DNA of 42,626 bases from the IMG/VR virus record IMGVR_UViG_3300018080_000052, positions 1-42,626 of that record. The stretch is one strand, 5' to 3'. The position numbers and the translations under genes were made by a program. Positions within the stretch are counted from its first letter, which is position 1. Each line of letters opens with the position of its first letter. The notes beneath the pieces are model-generated. The model ran no database searches and had not been told where the DNA came from. It saw only the letters and a list, made by a program, of their open reading frames with translations. This stretch comes from a virus. This document shows positions 1,802-27,871 of the stretch, in pieces.

Positions 1802-4582
1802 CTATGTAATTGATATGTTTCCCTTTGATGACAAAACAGTCCATGTTGTATCAGCTACAGTACACAATAGTTCAACTGCATCATAATCGTCTGTAGAATC
1901 AAGAGAGCCACCAACACCTACAGTAGTTGAAGTACTCTCATCCCATATAATACTTTCAGAGGCATTTTGTGCTATCTTCCAGCCACCTGCCCCTTTGCCA
2001 CAAACACGAACAACGGATCCCAATGCAGCTGTATCAGGAAGTGTAAGGGTTACTAGAGATGCATTATTTGCTATGTATCCATTGTCAACAGACATGCCCT
2101 GAGATGTTCCTGTTACTTCATTCCAGGTTATTCCTCCTCCACCACTCGAATTTATTGTTACAGTAGATCCGGACCCTGAGGTGGTTACATTTGTACCCCC
2201 AGCGATGGTTATGACGCCTGCGGCTGGGGTTGCTGATCCTGAATCAGTAGAAAAACTATCAGCTACGTTACCATCAACTGCAACCGTCACAGTTGAGCCT
2301 GATCCTGAAGTAGTGCAGTTATTTCCACCCGCAATGGTAAACGTACCTGCTGCTGGAGTTGCCGCAGATCCGTCTGTCGCAACGCTGGTAGCAACTGCAT
2401 CAAAATCTATATCTCTATCATCAACCGTCCATGTTCTAGTAGTGGCTGTTGTAATCCCTGAACACTGATATGCTAGCTTTTTGGTGTTATCTCCATCGTC
2501 AATAATTCTAAATGTATCGTCTGTGAATTCGGTAGAGACCGCACCAGTTGCTGTAATCGTAACGGTAGATCCTGAGGCTGAGGTAGTTATCCCTGTTCCT
2601 CCTGCCACGGTTAATACGCCTAAGCTCGGGGTTCCAGTTCCAGAATCAGTTGGGAAACTATCAGCAACATTGCCATCTACATCCAACGTTATGGTAGATC
2701 CTGCTCCAGCCGTAGTGAGGTTATTGCCACCAGCAAAGGTAAATACAGCAGATGCTGCCTGAGACGATCCACTATCGCCGTTAAATGTAAGATCATCTAT
2801 GGTTTCTAATGCAGACTGTACTGTTGTATCAGCTGCACTTAATATGTGATCAAAGTTTGTTGTATCAGTTAAAACAAGAGAAGCTGTTGTTGCAGTCACG
2901 CCTGAGAAGCTTGTTCTTGCTGTCTCTTTAGCAATAACAACCTGAACTATAGAAGTAGTTGATTCCTCAAATACAATGTATCCAAGCTGTGCCAATTCGA
3001 GCATAGCTAGTTCACCTGTTGCTGTTGGTATAGAATCATTAGCAATTGCTGTGTCAGCAGCTGCCAAGTTATTATACTCAGCGTCTCCCATAACAGAGAT
3101 ATATTTAGGCGTAGAAGAGTTAATATTGTCTTTAGAAACATAGAGCCTGTTGACTGTATATTTATTGTTACCTATGGCAGTAGGAGTTCCTGAGCTGTTC
3201 CATGTTCCATCGAATGTATCGCTACTTGCATAAAGCGCCCATTTGCCTGAACCATTTGTATAATATTGTTCCCACGTTTCTGCTACTCCACCACTATCTG
3301 GGATAGTAGTTTCGAGCCCATGATCTTCTAGTTCATCAACCCCTGATATCTCAATTTTTTGTGTACCATTTAGCGTAATATTTGCTCCACCCTGCTGGTC
3401 TGCGATAACAGAACCTATTGTATCGTGCGCCCATACAGATGTATTCCATGGGAATGTATAGGGATGATTTTCTTTAACTGTAAGTTGGTTGTTTGTTGGT
3501 GAAGTAGAATCCCTCAACACTTCAAACAAGACAATATTGTCTCTAAATAGAGCATCGTTATATGTTGTTGTTTTTTGTATGGTTCCAGTATCATCCATGT
3601 ATATATAATATGTGTTTCCAGCTGTCATACCTGTAACAGTTTGGCCACCTGCCCAAGATACAGGCTCTCCCTTAACATACCCGGTTCCAGCTTGTGAAAC
3701 CGTAAAAGACCCAAGAGTAGTATCATCAAAATACGGAGATCCTCCTGACCATGCCTCAAATCCTGACATAATAAGAAGACCAGTTCCTGCCTCAATATCT
3801 ATTTTTCCGGCACTATTAGTAACGGTTAAAGTGCCATCTGTAGCAGTAATATTACCAAGTACTGGGTCTAATCCACTTGATCCAATTGGTAATTGTCCAT
3901 CTGTGGCCACACCCAACGATGTAAGACTTCCTGATGCATTACCTAATTGAAGTGAATGATCCGTAGTTCCTGAAACATTTATAGTTACCGTAGATGCTGC
4001 TGCTGCGGTAGTTATGTTTGATCCACCAACAATATTCAAAACTCCGAGCGCTGGGGTAGCTGTACCGCTATCACCATCGAAAGACACGGCAACAGACCCC
4101 GAAGTGTTTAGATCTAAAGTATTTGCACCTGGAGTGAATGTTATAAATCCACTAGCAGATGTAAGTGATGCAAAGGCCGGCGCTGCGCCTGTGGCAGCTA
4201 TGACCAATTGACCGTCTGTACCTGCTCCGGTCCAAGAAAGAGCTGAACTTGTTCCAGCTCCGTAAGGTATTGTATTGGCTACCTGTGTGCCCAATTTAGC
4301 CTTAAGTGTGCTCGATGTTATAGCTCTTGTAGTGTCAGTACCGGCTATAGCTTCGGCATCTGTCGTGAGTTCTATTATGCCTTCTGTTGTTGTTGTTGCA
4401 GAATCTACCGTAATAGTTAAAAGATTTGATGCTGGAGTTCCAGTAACCGTAACAGGTGTAGTTCCTACAAAATCTATATTCGCTACTCCATCAGGTCCTA
4501 CTGCTCCTCCAACGTTTCCCGTAAGTGTTCCTACTACACCTCCTATAGATCCTGCGCTTATAAATTTTCCCATCTGTGACAT
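1802..4582 (-). CDS. Large repeat-rich tail fiber protein
   Basis: A 926-residue fiber rich in Gly, Ser, Thr and Ala. A module of roughly 40-60 residues is repeated with variation: DSGTATPxxGVLxIxGG followed by TNxTTSGSGSTVTI. Several copies cluster near residues 160-210 and 590-830, with a unique central region near 270-560. The C-terminus ends in a small beta domain (MSVDNGYIANNASLVTLTLP..) and not in a C1q head. The start follows AGGAGTACGC. The same repeat module occurs in the genes at 39165-40538, 40548-41948 and, more distantly, 5762-7840. It is a structural fiber; receptor and trimerisation are inferred. Confidence 0.85.
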   Translation of the reverse strand: MSQMGKFISAGSIGGVVGTLTGNVGGAVGPDGVANIDFVGTTPVTVTGTPASNLLTITVDSATTTTEGIIELTTDAEAIAGTDTTRAITSSTLKAKLGTQVANTIPYGAGTSSALSWTGAGTDGQLVIAATGAAPAFASLTSASGFITFTPGANTLDLNTSGSVAVSFDGDSGTATPALGVLNIVGGSNITTAAAASTVTINVSGTTDHSLQLGNASGSLTSLGVATDGQLPIGSSGLDPVLGNITATDGTLTVTNSAGKIDIEAGTGLLIMSGFEAWSGGSPYFDDTTLGSFTVSQAGTGYVKGEPVSWAGGQTVTGMTAGNTYYIYMDDTGTIQKTTTYNDALFRDNIVLFEVLRDSTSPTNNQLTVKENHPYTFPWNTSVWAHDTIGSVIADQQGGANITLNGTQKIEISGVDELEDHGLETTIPDSGGVAETWEQYYTNGSGKWALYASSDTFDGTWNSSGTPTAIGNNKYTVNRLYVSKDNINSSTPKYISVMGDAEYNNLAAADTAIANDSIPTATGELAMLELAQLGYIVFEESTTSIVQVVIAKETARTSFSGVTATTASLVLTDTTNFDHILSAADTTVQSALETIDDLTFNGDSGSSQAASAVFTFAGGNNLTTAGAGSTITLDVDGNVADSFPTDSGTGTPSLGVLTVAGGTGITTSASGSTVTITATGAVSTEFTDDTFRIIDDGDNTKKLAYQCSGITTATTRTWTVDDRDIDFDAVATSVATDGSAATPAAGTFTIAGGNNCTTSGSGSTVTVAVDGNVADSFSTDSGSATPAAGVITIAGGTNVTTSGSGSTVTINSSGGGGITWNEVTGTSQGMSVDNGYIANNASLVTLTLPDTAALGSVVRVCGKGAGGWKIAQNASESIIWDESTSTTVGVGGSLDSTDDYDAVELLCTVADTTWTVLSSKGNISIT

Positions 4583-4591
4583 TGCGTACTC

Positions 4592-4933
4592 CTATGTGTT
4601 TGCACCGTAGAAACTAGATACATATACAGAACCACTCGATGGAGATCCAACAGTCTTAACATAAACACGCGTTCCCTCTGCAATATAAAAACCGTGCTCT
4701 ATTGCTTTGTTCGCGGTAATATCCAAAAGTATGTATCCGTCACGTGGAAGTGGGAGATGATCATTAATACCATCAAATGAAAACATTAAGGTTGCGTCTG
4801 TTAGGTTCTGTACAAGTATTATACGTATCGGTTTATCGAATGCCGTACCAACACCCATATACGCAGCACCAATGGATCCTGACGCCAAGGATTTTAAGGT
4901 ATCAGGAACTAACCTGATGGCAAGTGAAGGCAT
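4592..4933 (-). CDS. Small virion-associated beta protein
   Basis: A 113-residue protein of alternating hydrophobic strands (IRIILVQNLTDATLMFSFDG, GYILLDITANK, GTRVYVKTVG, SGSVYVSSFYG). It is a paralog of the 107-residue protein at 5118-5441; both share the order strand, DG turn, L-P-G/D-G loop, G-T-x-VYV and a Y-x-SS/GYY end. This pattern is common among small structural genes near phage tail fibers. The start follows AAGGAGTAGTA. Function unknown; a fiber-base or decoration role is guesswork. Confidence 0.7.
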   Translation of the reverse strand: MPSLAIRLVPDTLKSLASGSIGAAYMGVGTAFDKPIRIILVQNLTDATLMFSFDGINDHLPLPRDGYILLDITANKAIEHGFYIAEGTRVYVKTVGSPSSGSVYVSSFYGANT

Positions 4934-4935
4934 TA

Positions 4936-5109
4936 CTACTCCTTCGTTTCTTTCGAATTAGGGGAAAGATCTACATCTATACCCGTTTCCTTTTTTATAA
5001 TTTCTTCAGCTATCTCTTCAATTTTATTGTCTTTTTTCATCTTAAATATGATGGTAGAACTTACTCCTATTGATACAGCTATTACCACCAAAGCTATACT
5101 CCAATACAT
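4936..5109 (-). CDS. Small single-span membrane protein
   Basis: A 57-residue ORF beginning MYWSIALVVIAVSIGVSSTI. It has one N-terminal transmembrane segment (about residues 4-22), then a basic KMKKDNK stretch and an acidic helix rich in Glu and Lys. The start has GGAAGAG just upstream, and the stop lies two bases before the next ATG, so it fits the operon tightly. It could be a lysis or membrane accessory protein, but nothing specific is recognised. Confidence 0.7.
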   Translation of the reverse strand: MYWSIALVVIAVSIGVSSTIIFKMKKDNKIEEIAEEIIKKETGIDVDLSPNSKETKE

Positions 5110-5117
5110 ACTCTTCC

Positions 5118-5441
5118 TTACGAATAGTAACCAACCAAATACACTAAACCTGTTCCACCTGCTAAACCTGAAACATATACTACAGTTCCTTTACGCAATA
5201 AAGTTCTATATCCACTAGGCACTGTGTTTTGTCCAAGATTTATTTGGAGAGTTTCTCCGTCCGGCAAGAAGTCATGATTAGTAGATCCATCGTAACTGAC
5301 AGTTACATCCCTGTCGCTATTATTAATAATGCGAATAATAGAACAAGAGTTTGGCAACCCCGCAGTGTTTATTGCTTGCAAGTTACCCGTGAATGTAGAT
5401 GAATCAATTGACGCTATTTCAATACTACTCAAATAATCCAT
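5118..5441 (-). CDS. Small virion-associated beta protein (paralog of 4592-4933)
   Basis: A 107-residue protein. The core reads IIRIINNSDRDVTVSYDGSTNHDFLPDGETLQ and then GTVVYVSGLAGGTGLVYLVGYYS, matching the paralog in strand order and in the DG and GT.VYV positions. It is well started, with AAGGAGGTATA before the ATG. Two copies flanking a small membrane protein suggest a local duplication. Role unknown. Confidence 0.7.
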   Translation of the reverse strand: MDYLSSIEIASIDSSTFTGNLQAINTAGLPNSCSIIRIINNSDRDVTVSYDGSTNHDFLPDGETLQINLGQNTVPSGYRTLLRKGTVVYVSGLAGGTGLVYLVGYYS

Positions 5442-5467
5442 TATACCTCCTTATGATGGTAATAATG

Positions 5468-5677
5468 TTAGTTACTCTCTTCTTCCTCTTTCTTTTTTTC
5501 TATTGCTCTATTGCTTTCTATGATATCCGCTGCCTTTTTTGACATATCAGACAAACCCTTTAGGCATTCGAGACAAGCATCAAAAGCTTCTCCATATTTA
5601 TGACCAATTGGCATCGTGAAGGTATACACCCTATCTTCTTTTGTAACTGTAAGTTGAATTGTTTGACTCTCTGTCAT
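5468..5677 (-). CDS. Conserved small phage protein
   Basis: A 69-residue protein. An N-terminal beta hairpin (TIQLTVTKEDRVYTFTMPIG) is followed by a helical segment (YGEAFDACLECLKGLSDMSKK) and a charged C-terminal tail rich in Glu and Lys. This layout is familiar from small genes beside fiber genes in other phages, but I know no function. The start follows AAAAAAGGGATGTA. Confidence 0.65.
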   Translation of the reverse strand: MTESQTIQLTVTKEDRVYTFTMPIGHKYGEAFDACLECLKGLSDMSKKAADIIESNRAIEKKKEEEESN

Positions 5678-5730
5678 TACATCCCTTTTTTAAAGATTAA
5701 TAATGTTATCAGTACTATCATAGCAATGAG

Positions 5731-5754
5731 AAAAGCCCCCTCATATAGAGGGGG
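5731..5754 (-). terminator. Rho-independent terminator after the fiber gene at 5762-7840
   Basis: A 7-bp GC-only arm pair (CCCCCTC/GAGGGGG, 5736-5754) with loop ATATA is followed, on the minus strand, by CTTTTCT. It sits seven bases past the stop of the upstream fiber gene, so it can separate that gene's transcript from the small genes below it or act as a partial terminator. Confidence 0.75.
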
Positions 5755-5761
5755 ATCAATT

Positions 5762-7840
5762 TTATGCAGCTATTATCCAGAATGTGATAATTATATCCCC
5801 ATTCAAAGCAGCTGCTCCGTTGTTCTTACATGTTACTTCAAAGGAACCAGCTTTGGGCTCAACTCTCTGTATTGTTAATTGCGCATCATTTGTTCCCTTT
5901 GTTGAAACAGAACATAAAATAGCAGAGTTAACCGTGCATACACTATTAGTTACGGTAAGCGTTACACTTGCAGCGCTTGCTGTTGTTTGACCTGTGAAGG
6001 TTCCAGCTCCAACATTTGCGTTAATCGTAATAGTTGTTGCAGCCTGACTATCAGTTGCAGGAACCATGTCAACAATACCAGCAGCCTCGATGGAGATACC
6101 TCCGGTTCCAGACTGAAGCGTTGTACTCGAGGTTGTGTTGGTCGACCCTAGGGTCAAATCCCTAGCTGCTGCACCGGTACAAATATTAACTGCTTGTGCG
6201 ACAGCATCATTACCAATATTTATAGCACCTGCACTTGAATTAAGCTCAAGAACACCATCAGCATCCAACAATAGAGTATCATCAGAATCAAGAGTAATAT
6301 CACCTGTTCCTGTAGATGCAAGTGCTATACCGCCAGTTCCCGCATTAAGTGCTAGTGCGGTAGCGCCAGTCACATTTCCCATAGTTATAGTATGCGCAAC
6401 AGCATTGGTTCCTATATTAAGAGCACCAGTTCCGCAATCTAATACAACACTAGTTGCTCCTGTGCCATTTCCTATAGTTATAGTACGTGCAGCGGATCCT
6501 GTTCCTATATTGATTGCTTGTGCATCTGCATCATTTCCAATTCCGATTGCACCTGCGCTTGAATTTAACTCTAATACTCCGCCGGAATCTATTGTAATAT
6601 CACCAGTTGCCGTAGCTGTTAATGATATTCCTCCTGTCCCAGAATTAAAGTCTAGTGTCGTTGCTCCAGTTGCATTTCCTATAGTCACGGTACGAGCAGC
6701 AGCCCCTGTTCCTATATTAATCGCTTGTGCATCAGCATCATTACCTACTGAGATTGCACCTCCAGATGAGTTAAGTTCTAGCACGCCAGCTGCATCTAGA
6801 GTAAGGCCATCAGTAGATGTACAAATAAGACCACCAGTTCCGCCCTGTACTGTTGTTGTCGATGTTGTGTTTGTTCCGCCTATAGTTGTAGCGTGTGCGT
6901 TAGCAGATGTACCAAAAGTAGCCCCACCTGTTCCGCAATTTACTGCTACAGAAGTTGCTCCTGTCGCATTTCCTATGGTAATACTTTTTGCAACTGTATC
7001 TGTACCAATAGTTATGCTTCCTGTGCCTGTATCAAGATCGAATGCTCCATTGGTTCCACCAATAGACATTCCACCTGTTCCATAATCAATATCAATTCCG
7101 CCAGCTGCATCTAAAGCTGATATGTTTATAGCGTCAGCAGAAGCTAAACCAGATGTAAGATCAATTCCTCCTACATCTGAGTGAATATAAATAGAATCAG
7201 CTGCTGTCCCTTGGTTAACACGAATCTCAATTGTCTCGCTTGTTCCTCCATCCGCATGCAAGTAAATATCTTGTCCAGCATTATCATCTGCTGTAATTGT
7301 GCACGTACCTGCGCTCATGGTAAGGCTGTCACCCGCTGTAATAGAACCAGTGACAGAAGGGCTAGCATCAAGATTGACTGTGACACTGTTGCCTGCCCCT
7401 GCGGTATTGATGTTTGTACCACCCGCAATATTTGTTGCCCCGAGTAATGGATTCGCAGTTCCCGAATCTGTAGGGAACGAGCTTGTCGTTGCACCTGAAA
7501 CTTCCATATTTATTGTGTTTGCACCATTTGTAACAACCAATGTTCCACCGGTGGATGTGATATTTGCCCAGGCTGGATCTAATCCAGTTGCACCAATTAA
7601 GACCTCTCCATCGTTTCCACCAGTTCCTTCAGCTGTCGTGATTTGCCACGAAGCTGTGTTCGCAGATACTGCTACAAGAATATATGCGTTTTCTGTGTTA
7701 GTATCGATCCACAAGGTCCCAAGCTCCGCTATATCACTCGTAGTTGGTATTCTATCAGCGATTATAGGAGCTGGAAATATATCTTCCAAAGGAGATGATA
7801 ATCCGTATCCCCTCTTTTGAAATTGTTTTCTTGTTGCCAT
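5762..7840 (-). CDS. Repeat-rich tail fiber/adhesin-like protein
   Basis: 692 residues from the ATG at 7840, chosen because AAGGAGAG lies four bases upstream; an in-frame upstream extension to 7882 has no such site. After an N-terminal head (about residues 1-110, with GTLWIDTNTENAYILV and NDGEVLIGATG) comes a long run of near-repeats of about 30-60 residues. The recurring units are GNDADAQAINIGTGAAARTV, TIGNATGATxLxxxxGTGGI and VLELNSSxGAIxIGND. The C-terminus is a compact beta domain (SVTLTVTNSVCTVNSAILCS..ITFWIIAA). The repeats suggest a beta-helical or triple-beta shaft. It opens a separate leftward unit with an RHH-type operator just upstream. Confidence 0.82.
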   Translation of the reverse strand: MATRKQFQKRGYGLSSPLEDIFPAPIIADRIPTTSDIAELGTLWIDTNTENAYILVAVSANTASWQITTAEGTGGNDGEVLIGATGLDPAWANITSTGGTLVVTNGANTINMEVSGATTSSFPTDSGTANPLLGATNIAGGTNINTAGAGNSVTVNLDASPSVTGSITAGDSLTMSAGTCTITADDNAGQDIYLHADGGTSETIEIRVNQGTAADSIYIHSDVGGIDLTSGLASADAINISALDAAGGIDIDYGTGGMSIGGTNGAFDLDTGTGSITIGTDTVAKSITIGNATGATSVAVNCGTGGATFGTSANAHATTIGGTNTTSTTTVQGGTGGLICTSTDGLTLDAAGVLELNSSGGAISVGNDADAQAINIGTGAAARTVTIGNATGATTLDFNSGTGGISLTATATGDITIDSGGVLELNSSAGAIGIGNDADAQAINIGTGSAARTITIGNGTGATSVVLDCGTGALNIGTNAVAHTITMGNVTGATALALNAGTGGIALASTGTGDITLDSDDTLLLDADGVLELNSSAGAINIGNDAVAQAVNICTGAAARDLTLGSTNTTSSTTLQSGTGGISIEAAGIVDMVPATDSQAATTITINANVGAGTFTGQTTASAASVTLTVTNSVCTVNSAILCSVSTKGTNDAQLTIQRVEPKAGSFEVTCKNNGAAALNGDIIITFWIIAA

Positions 7841-25087: not shown

Positions 25088-25615
25088 TTATTTTTTAAAT
25101 ATTTCTGCGTAGTCTTCTTCTTTATCTGATAATTTCCAGAATCTCTCGTTATCCAATCTTAATTGTTCCCATTTTTTTTCAATGAGATTATCGATCATCT
25201 TTGGACACCACACAGTATTTTTTTCTTTTTGCACTCCATAAATTCTTTCTGCCTCTCTACATTTGGCACACCGGTTTGTAATACTGAATTTTTCTACTTT
25301 TCCTTCAACTAGTGTTCTACACCCAGGGCATGCTCCCCAGTAGTAACAGTTGCCTTCAACTTTACCTTTCTTCATAATGATCCAGGTATTCCATACAAAT
25401 GGCATTCGTTGCAGCTTAAACTCTAGCGTTGATGGAGTACACTTCGCACACGAACGACAACCGTTATTTTTCTTCATTGTATATTTTGTTTTTCTACAGA
25501 TTCTCTTACAGATAGGACATGCAGCTTCATAGTAGTGGTGATGTTTTTGATAACCAAGATATTTTACAGCGATCCATCCATTTTCAACAAAAGGACACTT
25601 TCTTTTATCTTTCAT
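25088..25615 (-). CDS. Tandem zinc-ribbon protein
   Basis: 175 residues made of two similar units. Unit 1 (about residues 8-59): CPFVENGWIAVKY..YYEAACPICKR..GCRSCAKC. Unit 2 (about 71-119): MPFVWNTWIIMKK..YYWGACPGCRT..RCAKC. Each has two CxxC pairs able to bind zinc. A helical charged C-terminus follows. The same ribbon style occurs in 26975-27871. Position downstream of the tRNA-like/hairpin array makes RNA or tRNA binding a fair hypothesis, but no enzyme motif is seen. The start follows AAGGAAGAGGG. Confidence 0.65.
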   Translation of the reverse strand: MKDKRKCPFVENGWIAVKYLGYQKHHHYYEAACPICKRICRKTKYTMKKNNGCRSCAKCTPSTLEFKLQRMPFVWNTWIIMKKGKVEGNCYYWGACPGCRTLVEGKVEKFSITNRCAKCREAERIYGVQKEKNTVWCPKMIDNLIEKKWEQLRLDNERFWKLSDKEEDYAEIFKK

Positions 25616-25803
25616 TCCCTCTTCCTTGCTACATTATTGCCTTGAGTAGCAGCCACATAGTCGAGAACACGATTGTTTGCTCGCGCCAACAACATCTCTG
25701 CTGTTGTTACATACCAGTGGTTTTATATAAGCTTTTACCTTTTATCTTTAAACTTTAATACTTTTTGAGCTTTAACGTTTGAACTTTGAACTTTTAACTG
25801 TAT
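25616..25803 (-). other. Long non-coding leader with AT-rich short repeats
   Basis: No gene is supported here. Reading leftward, short direct repeats of the AGTTCAAAG type come first (about 25755-25800), then an inverted pair AACAACA/TGTTGTT with a seven-base loop (about 25687-25707), then the zinc-ribbon gene. A related AGTTCAAAGCTCAAAGG occurs at about 26540-26556 before gene 26003-26536. It probably forms the 5' leader joining the hairpin array to the zinc-ribbon message. Confidence 0.5.
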
Positions 25804-25856
25804 ACCATTCCCAAAATGGTTGCCTTTGCAGGGCATTGCGGATTAACAGTCCGCAA
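25804..25856 (-). ncRNA. Array of three abutting anticodon-arm-like hairpins
   Basis: On the minus strand three hairpins lie end to end with no spacer bases. The first (25856-25836) has a 7-bp stem TTGCGGA/TCCGCAA and loop CTGTTAA, identical to the bacterial tRNA-Asn(GUU) loop. The second (25835-25821) has stem TGCC/GGCA and loop CTGCAAA, matching tRNA-Cys(GCA). The third (25820-25804) has stem ACCAT/ATGGT and loop TTTGGGA, matching tRNA-Pro(UGG). Each loop has seven bases, U33, a purine at 37 and A38. None has its own T or D arm. They follow a tRNA-like structure directly. A decoy role for anticodon nucleases or tRNA-binding proteins is inferred. Confidence 0.6.
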
Positions 25857-25925
25857 CTGATACAGGACTCGAACCTGTGACTTCAAGCGTAATGGCTTGT
25901 GCTCTACCAGCTGAGCTAATCAGTT
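25854..25925 (-). tRNA. tRNA-like cloverleaf with aberrant six-base anticodon loop
   Basis: The acceptor arms AACTGAT and ATCAGTT pair in all seven positions. The D arm GCTC/GAGC with AGCTGGTA and the T arm ACAGG/CCTGT with TTCGAGT are textbook. The anticodon stem CAAGC/GCTTG closes on CATTAC, one base short and lacking U33, so no anticodon can be assigned with confidence. The variable loop is five bases. Discriminator G is followed by CGG, so CCA is not encoded, and the 3' end shares bases with the next hairpin. It may be a decayed tRNA or a tRNA mimic. Confidence 0.7.
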
Positions 25926-26002
25926 CGTTTCAAACATTTATCTCTTTTCGCTAAACAAGGCAAATATTTCAATCCGTGACATTTTGTCACGACCTGCTAT
26001 TA

Positions 26003-26536
26003 TTAAATTTTTACAGTAGAATTCTTCATAGATAGCTGACCATCAAGCGTCGATAATGTCTCTACTATTTTTTCCACTTCCTGGGAGACTTCTTTCTCAT
26101 CAATGTTAATTATCAAGTCCATCGCAGAGGCGTTAACATCTGATCCAGAAATAGTAATATTGTTTCTAACTGCCTGAGCTCTTGCTGATTGCACCTTACT
26201 GTATATGGACTCTAAGAAGTATTTACGTGGCTTGGCAATTTCTCGTCTCCAAATTAACCATTCGGATATAGTCTTTGTTTCACCACAGACAGTTACCTGA
26301 GTAGAATCATTAGCTTTTGATATTCTCTGTTTTATATCTATTATATTATTTTCTAAATCTTTGATAGCTTGGCGCTCTTTCGATATAAAATCACGTGATC
26401 CACCAGACTTTTCATGTGGATCTCTCAAGTGATTTTGTCGCCACAAATATCCATTAATGAATTCTCTTTTCTTTTCTATGCGCTTTAATATTGTTTTTAT
26501 TTCCTGTAACGCTTCTGTAATTGTCATATCATTCAT
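26003..26536 (-). CDS. Coiled-coil phage protein of unknown function
   Basis: 177 residues. The N-terminal helical region (ITEALQEIKTILKRIEKKRE, residues 5-30) is followed by RDFISKERQAIKDLENNIID and QRISKANDSTQVTVCGETKT, then ISEWLIWRREIAKP, helical again to the end. It resembles small phage-encoded coiled-coil proteins, but no family is assigned. The start follows AAAGGATAAAA. An imperfect GTGAC/GTCAC hairpin lies about 12 bases past its stop, before the tRNA-like gene. Confidence 0.6.
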   Translation of the reverse strand: MNDMTITEALQEIKTILKRIEKKREFINGYLWRQNHLRDPHEKSGGSRDFISKERQAIKDLENNIIDIKQRISKANDSTQVTVCGETKTISEWLIWRREIAKPRKYFLESIYSKVQSARAQAVRNNITISGSDVNASAMDLIINIDEKEVSQEVEKIVETLSTLDGQLSMKNSTVKI

Positions 26537-26974: not shown

Positions 26975-27871
26975 CTAATTATATTGTGTGACCAACTTTA
27001 TATCTGTTCCAAACACACTCTGGAAAGAAAGTATTACCTCTCCAAAATTATTCTCTAGTGTTGCTACCATGATAGCATTATTTTTCTTGTCTAATGTAAT
27101 TGTAACGTTATGATTATCATCAAACTCACTTTTTATACAACAAAAATTAAACACGCTTTGAAGAAGATTATTTCTTTCAGCTAGATCTTTCAAGAACATC
27201 ATATATAAAGTTCCCATTGGAAGTTTAGCGCGCTTATTATTTGAAAGATTTGCTATTGAAACACTTTGCTCATCAATAGTCCTCTGCATTACTTGTCCCA
27301 TATCAATAATATGGTGAACAGAGGGATATTTACGAACTACCTCAAGTGTCTCATAAATGCGCTTTGCTTTGTCCATATCAAAAGCTTTATGCTGAAACAT
27401 TACCTCATATTTACCTTCTTCATTCCAATAACCACAACTACAGAATCCATCTTCGTCTAGCACCATGTACAGGTGATCAGCCTGCCTTTCTGTTATAGGC
27501 AACCCTTTAAATAAAGATAAAGCTTCTTCTGAGATAACATCTTTCACAGCAATACTCCTTGGTTTCGTGTAGTGCTTACAAACCTTACATCTACGATACA
27601 ATATTATGGTTTTAATTTTCGAATTAATGATAGCTCTTTTGAATACACGTTTTTTACCACATGTCCTACATTCAGCTTCAAATGCATATTCGTTATCGAC
27701 TATTCCCCAAAATCTCTTGATAGTGAAATCTTCTAATTCTCTACCAAGAACACAACCTATATGGTCTTTGTATTTATCAGAGTTTTTATCGAGCGCTAGA
27801 GCTTTAGCTGTTCTTTCATGGTCTTTTCTTTGTTCCAATGTCCTTGTTCTTTTCTTTTTCTTGTTTTTCAT
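26975..27871 (-). CDS. Zinc-ribbon protein of unknown function
   Basis: 298 residues. A Lys/Arg-rich N-terminus (KNKKKKRTRTLEQRKDHERT) leads to a zinc-ribbon near residues 66-100 (FEAECRTCGKKRVFKRAI.. RRCKVCKHY) like those in 25088-25615. A second Cys pair lies near residue 138 (GFCSCGYWNEEGKYEVMFQH). The C-terminal 100 residues are mixed alpha/beta (KLPMGTLYMMFLKDLAERNN, VTITLDKKNNAIMVATLENN). The ATG overlaps the RHH stop, indicating coupling. A nucleic-acid-binding role is plausible. Confidence 0.6.
   Translation of the reverse strand: MKNKKKKRTRTLEQRKDHERTAKALALDKNSDKYKDHIGCVLGRELEDFTIKRFWGIVDNEYAFEAECRTCGKKRVFKRAIINSKIKTIILYRRCKVCKHYTKPRSIAVKDVISEEALSLFKGLPITERQADHLYMVLDEDGFCSCGYWNEEGKYEVMFQHKAFDMDKAKRIYETLEVVRKYPSVHHIIDMGQVMQRTIDEQSVSIANLSNNKRAKLPMGTLYMMFLKDLAERNNLLQSVFNFCCIKSEFDDNHNVTITLDKKNNAIMVATLENNFGEVILSFQSVFGTDIKLVTQYN

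Follow-up and report, generated by a model that had tools for sequence, protein, structure and literature searches.

The three anticodon-arm-like hairpins that follow a tRNA-like cloverleaf on the minus strand of the 42,626-nucleotide viral sequence analysed here (the window) are the variable hub of a larger RNA of about 330 nt, encoded at 25637–25963 (minus strand), and not an isolated array. An earlier note, made from the sequence alone, had read these hairpins as serial mimics of anticodon arms; that reading is supported in a more general form, since the array belongs, as a single domain, to a more extensive conserved RNA that is linked to the gene of a protein family, PHROG 1491. We consider it highly probable that this is a conserved structured RNA carrying genuine anticodon-arm mimics. 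It represents a phage RNA family of approximately 300–400 bases that is of wide occurrence and previously undescribed; no paper describing it was found in the openly licensed literature, to which the search was confined (subscription journals lay outside it).

The cloverleaf and the arms of the array are as follows.
25855–25925, minus strand: tRNA-like body (AACTGAT...ATCAGTT) with a 7-bp acceptor, a D arm, a T arm, a defective 6-nt anticodon loop and no CCA
25884–25899, minus strand: the body's own anticodon arm, CAAGC-CATTAC-GCTTG
25838–25854, minus strand: Asn(GUU) anticodon arm, GCGGA-CTGTTAA-TCCGC
25821–25835, minus strand: Cys(GCA) anticodon arm, TGCC-CTGCAAA-GGCA
25804–25820, minus strand: Pro(UGG) anticodon arm, ACCAT-TTTGGGA-ATGGT

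Direct reading confirms that the three hairpins at 25804–25854 (minus strand) carry the anticodon loops of tRNA-Asn(GUU), tRNA-Cys(GCA) and tRNA-Pro(UGG), with U33 and a purine at position 37, and that they are not whole tRNAs, having no D or T arm of their own. The array directly adjoins the body, as the earlier note had it, the absence of spacer bases being broken by an AA between the Asn and Cys arms; all three stems pair, with the correction that the Cys stem has 4 bp. The caveat that the third stem resembles other hairpins of the genome does not hold, as ACCAT-N7-ATGGT occurs once in the window, with 0.02 occurrences expected. The body is called as a tRNA by both ARAGORN and Rfam (RF00005, 57.3 bits, 25854–25925). 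Its anticodon loop is the 6-nt CATTAC, a 7-nt loop with U33 being absent, and because of this loop and the missing CCA the body is unlikely to decode; in relatives, the corresponding loop reads CTTAAAC, CTTAACC, CTGATAA or CTTGTAA. The 17-nt Asn arm does not differ in a single base from that of ordinary tRNA-Asn in IMG/VR; at least 119 contigs contain the 17-mer, nearly all of them in ordinary tRNA contexts. Among relatives of the RNA, the same loops stand on other stems: CTGTTAA on ATGGC/GCCAT in loci L128 and L182, CTGCAAA on CACC/GGTG in L244, and TTTGGGA on TTGCA/TGCAA in L190.

Outside the array, the RNA consists of the following elements.
25956–25963, minus strand: 5' strand TTGCCTTG of the terminal closing helix P1, with 8 of 8 positions paired to CAAGGCAA at 25637–25644 in the unconstrained minimum free energy (MFE) fold
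25941–25951, minus strand: conserved 5' motif GCGAAAAGAGA (family form RGCGAANNGRGA), of the pattern GCGAA..GAGA
25929–25938, minus strand: 5' strand of the stalk, AATGTTTGAA, pairing with TTCAAACGTT in the linker at 25774–25783
25796–25803, minus strand: ATACAGTT, which can pair with the 5' acceptor strand of the body in place of the adjoining partner and so closes the hub
25728–25795, minus strand: linker of AAAGTTN-like repeats, with a similar linker in relatives, T5, KIL1 and Abraxas
25635–25727, minus strand: 3' domain, comprising P3 (CCAC/GTGG), P4, two hairpins and a tail with the 3' strand of P1 (25637–25644)

The unconstrained fold of 25630–25966 has a free energy of -96.8 kcal/mol and a z-score of -3.91, with none of 100 shuffled sequences folding as well, and it contains P1, the stalk, the hub with all arms and the 3' domain; the Pro arm is drawn in it as a 7-bp stem with a 3-nt loop. 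The 5' acceptor strand of the body has two possible partners, the adjoining ATCAGTT and ATACAGTT past the third arm, the latter pairing enclosing all the arms in one hub. An RNAduplex search for P1 mispaired a minority of the members, among them the window, whose P1 is seen in the full fold. Counterparts of P1 in relatives covary (TTACCTTG/CAAGGTAA, GAAGCCTTCG/CGGAGGCTTC, AAAATCTCCAT/ATGGAGATTTT and others), and the 5' motif reads RGCGAA in most members. A TTTGAA/TTCAAA pairing of the stalk, as read by eye, is present in most close relatives and is so nearly invariant that it yields little covariation. Sequence conservation among relatives is far higher on both flanks of the arms than in the arms themselves. 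In a scan with Rfam 15, only the tRNA reached threshold within the element, and the frame and the 3' domain matched no curated family. A Bacteroidetes-type promoter that had been considered in front of the tRNA-like body was dropped, the block in question being the 5' strand of P1/P2 together with the conserved RNA motif.

The gene that accompanies the RNA lies upstream of it.
26003–26536, minus strand: companion gene encoding a 177-aa protein of PHROG 1491, all-helical by AlphaFold2

The label 'tail fiber protein' attached to PHROG 1491 is probably wrong, because the AlphaFold2 model is compact and all-helical and the gene accompanies the RNA rather than tail genes. A search of the PDB with the sequence profile of the family gave nothing significant, and the best Foldseek match of the model is 3kdq, a protein of unknown function (E = 1.6e-3). 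The window's copy of the RNA lies near the portal gene; elsewhere the locus is found beside replication, tRNA or unrelated genes. Several neighbouring genes were noted in passing. In the window, the flanking proteins encoded at 25088–25615 and 26975–27871 (minus strand) contain CxxC pairs suggestive of zinc ribbons and match no Pfam family; in L258, the RNA is closely followed by a gene for a TROVE/Ro60-like protein (4572–6245, plus strand); and RNA-repair-type genes, of the RlaP family and for a polynucleotide kinase/phosphatase, are found near the RNA in an Armatimonadetes MAG contig (L292, 7562–8284, plus strand) and in a Cronobacter phage (L304, 3384–3881, plus strand).

Relatives of the RNA were first found via the portal gene and DNA patterns. 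The portal gene was abandoned as an anchor for homologs, since 30 of 37 virus records, mostly portal relatives, lacked the RNA; the right anchor is PHROG 1491. A covariance model of the 3' domain, designated R1, which scores the domain of the window at 73.2 bits, was searched around PHROG 1491 homologs in IMG/VR and two MAG contigs. Matches with E < 1e-4 were obtained in 63 of 73 sources, in most cases no more than a few hundred bases 3' of the PHROG 1491 gene; L250 and L285 have the RNA ahead of the gene. In the alignment of these 63 sequences, 96.2% of the cells are paired and 22 of 23 pairs vary at both positions. Covariation scores 1.023, compared with 0.236 ± 0.012 for shuffled alignments and at most 0.12 for slid structures, the underlying alignment leaning towards the model's own structure. 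The composition of the hub differs among the relatives that were found first: L128 and L182 combine a body with a Leu(UAA)-type loop, an Asn arm and a TATTGGA arm, L132 has an Ile(GAU)-type body, a large hairpin and a Tyr(GUA) arm, L122 a Thr(UGU)-type body and a TATGGGA arm, and L190 a Leu-type body and a Pro arm.

The arms were counted in 62 unique inserts, an insert being the stretch between the 5' motif and the linker, and an arm was called canonical if its loop fits Y32-U33-N3-R37-(A/C)38, T-loops excluded. The inserts contain 43 canonical anticodon arms, spread over 33 of the 62 members, compared with 1.5 ± 1.2 (maximum 5) in dinucleotide shuffles, and the 3' domains of the same 62 RNAs contain none. 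Hairpins with a 5-bp stem and a 7-nt loop number 115, a figure that includes T arms, compared with 19.6 ± 4.3 in dinucleotide shuffles, and other loop sizes are enriched at most 2.7-fold; a reverse-complement control for the loops gave little, the consensus being nearly symmetrical. With cultured phages added, there are 47 arms in 37 members, 32 of the 47 lacking both a D arm and a T arm in their surroundings. Most arms thus stand alone, and they carry many different anticodons: Ser(UGA) seven times, Asn, Leu, Lys, Ser(GCU), Thr, Ile, Phe, Pro, Cys, Arg, Met, Tyr, His, Glu, Val, Trp and Gln, one ACU, and the stop-codon anticodons CUA (L241), UUA (L268) and UCA (L289). About half of the members have no strictly canonical arm, and imperfect arms, with A, G or C at position 33 or with 6-nt loops, exist. 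Stems that do not covary and loops that drift freely in related phages had been named beforehand as evidence against the arms; what is seen is that identical loops stand on unrelated stems, the stems being replaced wholesale while the loops stay exact, as with TATTGGA on TACCA/TGGTA, on TTGCT/AGCAA and, in T5, on TAATC/GATTA. Some inserts are whole or permuted tRNAs, and a few are complete tRNAs with CCA. In L238, L247, L267 and L291 the arm slot holds circularly permuted tRNA-like pieces, with the T arm and 3' acceptor preceding the 5' acceptor and D arm. In L184 (14435–14515) and L211 (730–830), PHROG 1491 and a tRNA-Asp gene are separated by an unusual tRNA-like sequence whose anticodon region is extended into a very long hairpin.

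Sensitive searches with the proteins of phages KIL1 and Salmonella 7-11 detected PHROG 1491 homologs in about 700 phage records, including T5, vequintaviruses and Vibrio, Lactococcus and Acinetobacter phages. In the cultured-phage records examined, a stretch of about 320–660 nt without annotation typically comes after the PHROG 1491 gene. R1 scores none of the four cultured-phage loci on which it was run, and the membership of T5 and other cultured phages rests on gene order and on features read by hand; as an automatic search for P3 chose wrong partners in most of these phages, the P3 pairs quoted are readings by eye. In T5, the gap after T5.085 shows, by hand reading, the terminal helix GCTAGTAAATCG/CGGTTTACTAGT, the AAAG linker, P3 (CCTAG/CTAGG) and two arms, TAATC-TATTGGA-GATTA and TCAGA-CATTTAA-TCTGA. 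The putative T5 RNA, of about 370 nt, would lie at about 43.10–43.50 kb of AY543070, and its sequence is shared by 447 phage records. Of 16 cultured phages, only 4 have a strictly canonical arm. Across seven T5-like phages, the last arm is variable in 11 of its 19 columns, compared with 58 of 384 elsewhere, a number to which end gaps contribute. Its loop is CATTTAA in T5 and Gostya9, CTTTTAA, that of Lys(UUU), in SPC35 and SP15, CTCTTAA, that of Lys(CUU), in UTK0009 and Klebsiella 150049, and another sequence in rokbiter, and one pair of its stem switches from A-U to C-G in step with the loop change.

YrlA bacterial Y RNAs possess a terminal stem formed by their 5' and 3' ends and a GCGAAG-like motif. 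The RNA described here resembles them in its terminal stem, its GCGAAG-like motif and its tRNA-mimicking domain, which in YrlA has been proposed as a competitive inhibitor of an anticodon nuclease (PMC7790460); it differs in having several free anticodon arms with changing anticodons and an extra covarying 3' domain. Membership in the Y RNAs is unsupported: the Rfam YrlA model (RF02553) matches the RNA neither in the window nor in any of 12 loci that were scanned, its sub-threshold matches lying at other positions, and a Ro60/Rsr (TROVE) gene is present in 1 of 50 records searched, a set that does not include the window's record. The T4 band C/D RNAs (species 1 and 2) and T5 RNAX are stable phage RNAs of unknown function located beside tRNA genes, but they share no common frame by eye and have another gene order, T5 RNAX lying about 2 kb from the T5 RNA described here. 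T4 rnaC (L313, 1909–2047, minus strand), which has at its end a T arm enclosed by an acceptor-like stem, GAAACG/CGTTTC, may be a distant parallel. A possible further parallel is the PAK_P3 sRNA2, an abundant late phage sRNA with a T-loop stretch (PMC4933390), which is located between two tRNA genes. Phage tRNAs that act against PARIS, PrrC and retron-Eco7 also counter tRNA-targeting defence through anticodon-arm identity (PMC12409363, PMC11555353); these are whole tRNAs that replace the cleaved ones, whereas free arms cannot decode.

We propose, with a probability of roughly one half, that a structured phage RNA, encoded as an independent unit and bearing its arms in this array as an exchangeable domain, acts on host anticodon nucleases as a decoy or as a competitive inhibitor. 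An invariant frame (P1/P2 helix, 5' motif, linker and 3' domain) would display one to four anticodon arms or tRNA-like bodies on the hub; the arms, imitating those of host or phage tRNAs, would bind enzymes that attack or handle tRNAs, most likely the anticodon nucleases of phage defence, so that real tRNAs survive, and would be replaced when the threatened tRNA changes. Expression as a discrete RNA, binding of protein, inhibition of nucleases and involvement of the PHROG 1491 protein are parts of the model that we infer. The exchange of arms on a fixed frame is the expected product of an arms race, and the decoy role fits both the rapid turnover of the arms and the anticodons that they carry (Lys, Asn, Thr, Ser, Tyr, Cys). 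The PARIS nuclease AriB cleaves Lys(UUU), Thr(UGU) and Asn(GUU) tRNAs, PrrC cleaves tRNA-Lys, and viral tRNAs have been suggested by the same authors to inhibit AriB also by competition (PMC12409363); retron-Eco7 and PrrC170 are defeated by phage tRNAs (PMC11555353). Against the decoy role stand the stop-codon anticodons and ACU, which are not typical host tRNA targets, the imperfect arms and the members without a canonical arm, and the complete tRNA-like bodies of many members, which may serve otherwise.

The same arm data, with their diverse identities and stop-codon anticodons, would also be expected if the arms titrated other binders of anticodon arms, such as aminoacyl-tRNA synthetases, tRNA-modifying enzymes or ribosome and translation factors, and thereby reprogrammed host translation; ribosome blocking has been proposed for a PAK_P3 sRNA that shares 11 nt with T-loops (PMC4933390). 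By itself, however, titration does not explain the rapid exchange of one arm on the frozen T5-like frame, and we regard it as rather unlikely. If tRNA genes instead inserted repeatedly into a loop of an RNA that functions through its frame, for example as a ribonucleoprotein with the PHROG 1491 protein, the arms would be functionless remnants; the complete and permuted tRNA bodies in the same slot (L238, L247, L267, L291) are compatible with this, yet remnants should decay, whereas stem pairing, U33 and R37 persist in the free arms far more often than expected at random, and changes of the T5-like arm are matched by compensation in a stem pair, which makes this explanation unlikely.

A phage Y RNA of the YrlA/Rsr type, a tRNA mimic that recruits a Ro60-like protein and an exonuclease and whose arms are substrate mimics, would account for the terminal helix with its GCGAAG-type motif, the tRNA-like domain and the TROVE/Ro60 gene of L258, and Rsr-YrlA operons respond to damaged tRNAs (PMC7790460). 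We nevertheless find it quite improbable, as the RNA has no Rfam YrlA match in any scanned member (two sub-threshold matches of 22 bits, with a cut-off of 69, lie elsewhere) and the single TROVE gene has no counterpart in T5. It is more improbable still that the RNA is a carrier for functional tRNAs or a structural or packaging RNA: some inserts are complete tRNAs and the window copy is near the portal gene, but the window body has neither CCA nor a 7-nt loop, the majority of the arms are free, and the locus of other phages has different neighbours. Chance hairpins next to a decayed tRNA, which the local fold at the array (z = -1.76 only) might suggest, are rejected with near certainty by the 43 arms observed where 1.5 are expected, the covariation and the loops common to distant phages.

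Returning to the decoy role, a broader and more tentative proposal is that the PHROG 1491 protein and the arm-bearing RNA form a widespread phage ribonucleoprotein, in T5 and hundreds of relatives, whose arms soak up or inhibit host anticodon nucleases, the identity of the arms tracking host defences. The finding fills what is annotated as a gap in T5 and hundreds of other sequenced phages with a structured RNA gene, and it gives a partner to PHROG 1491, a protein family that is likely misannotated. If the arms are decoys, the RNA would constitute an RNA-based counter-defence against tRNA-cleaving immunity, with a target that can be read from the anticodon.
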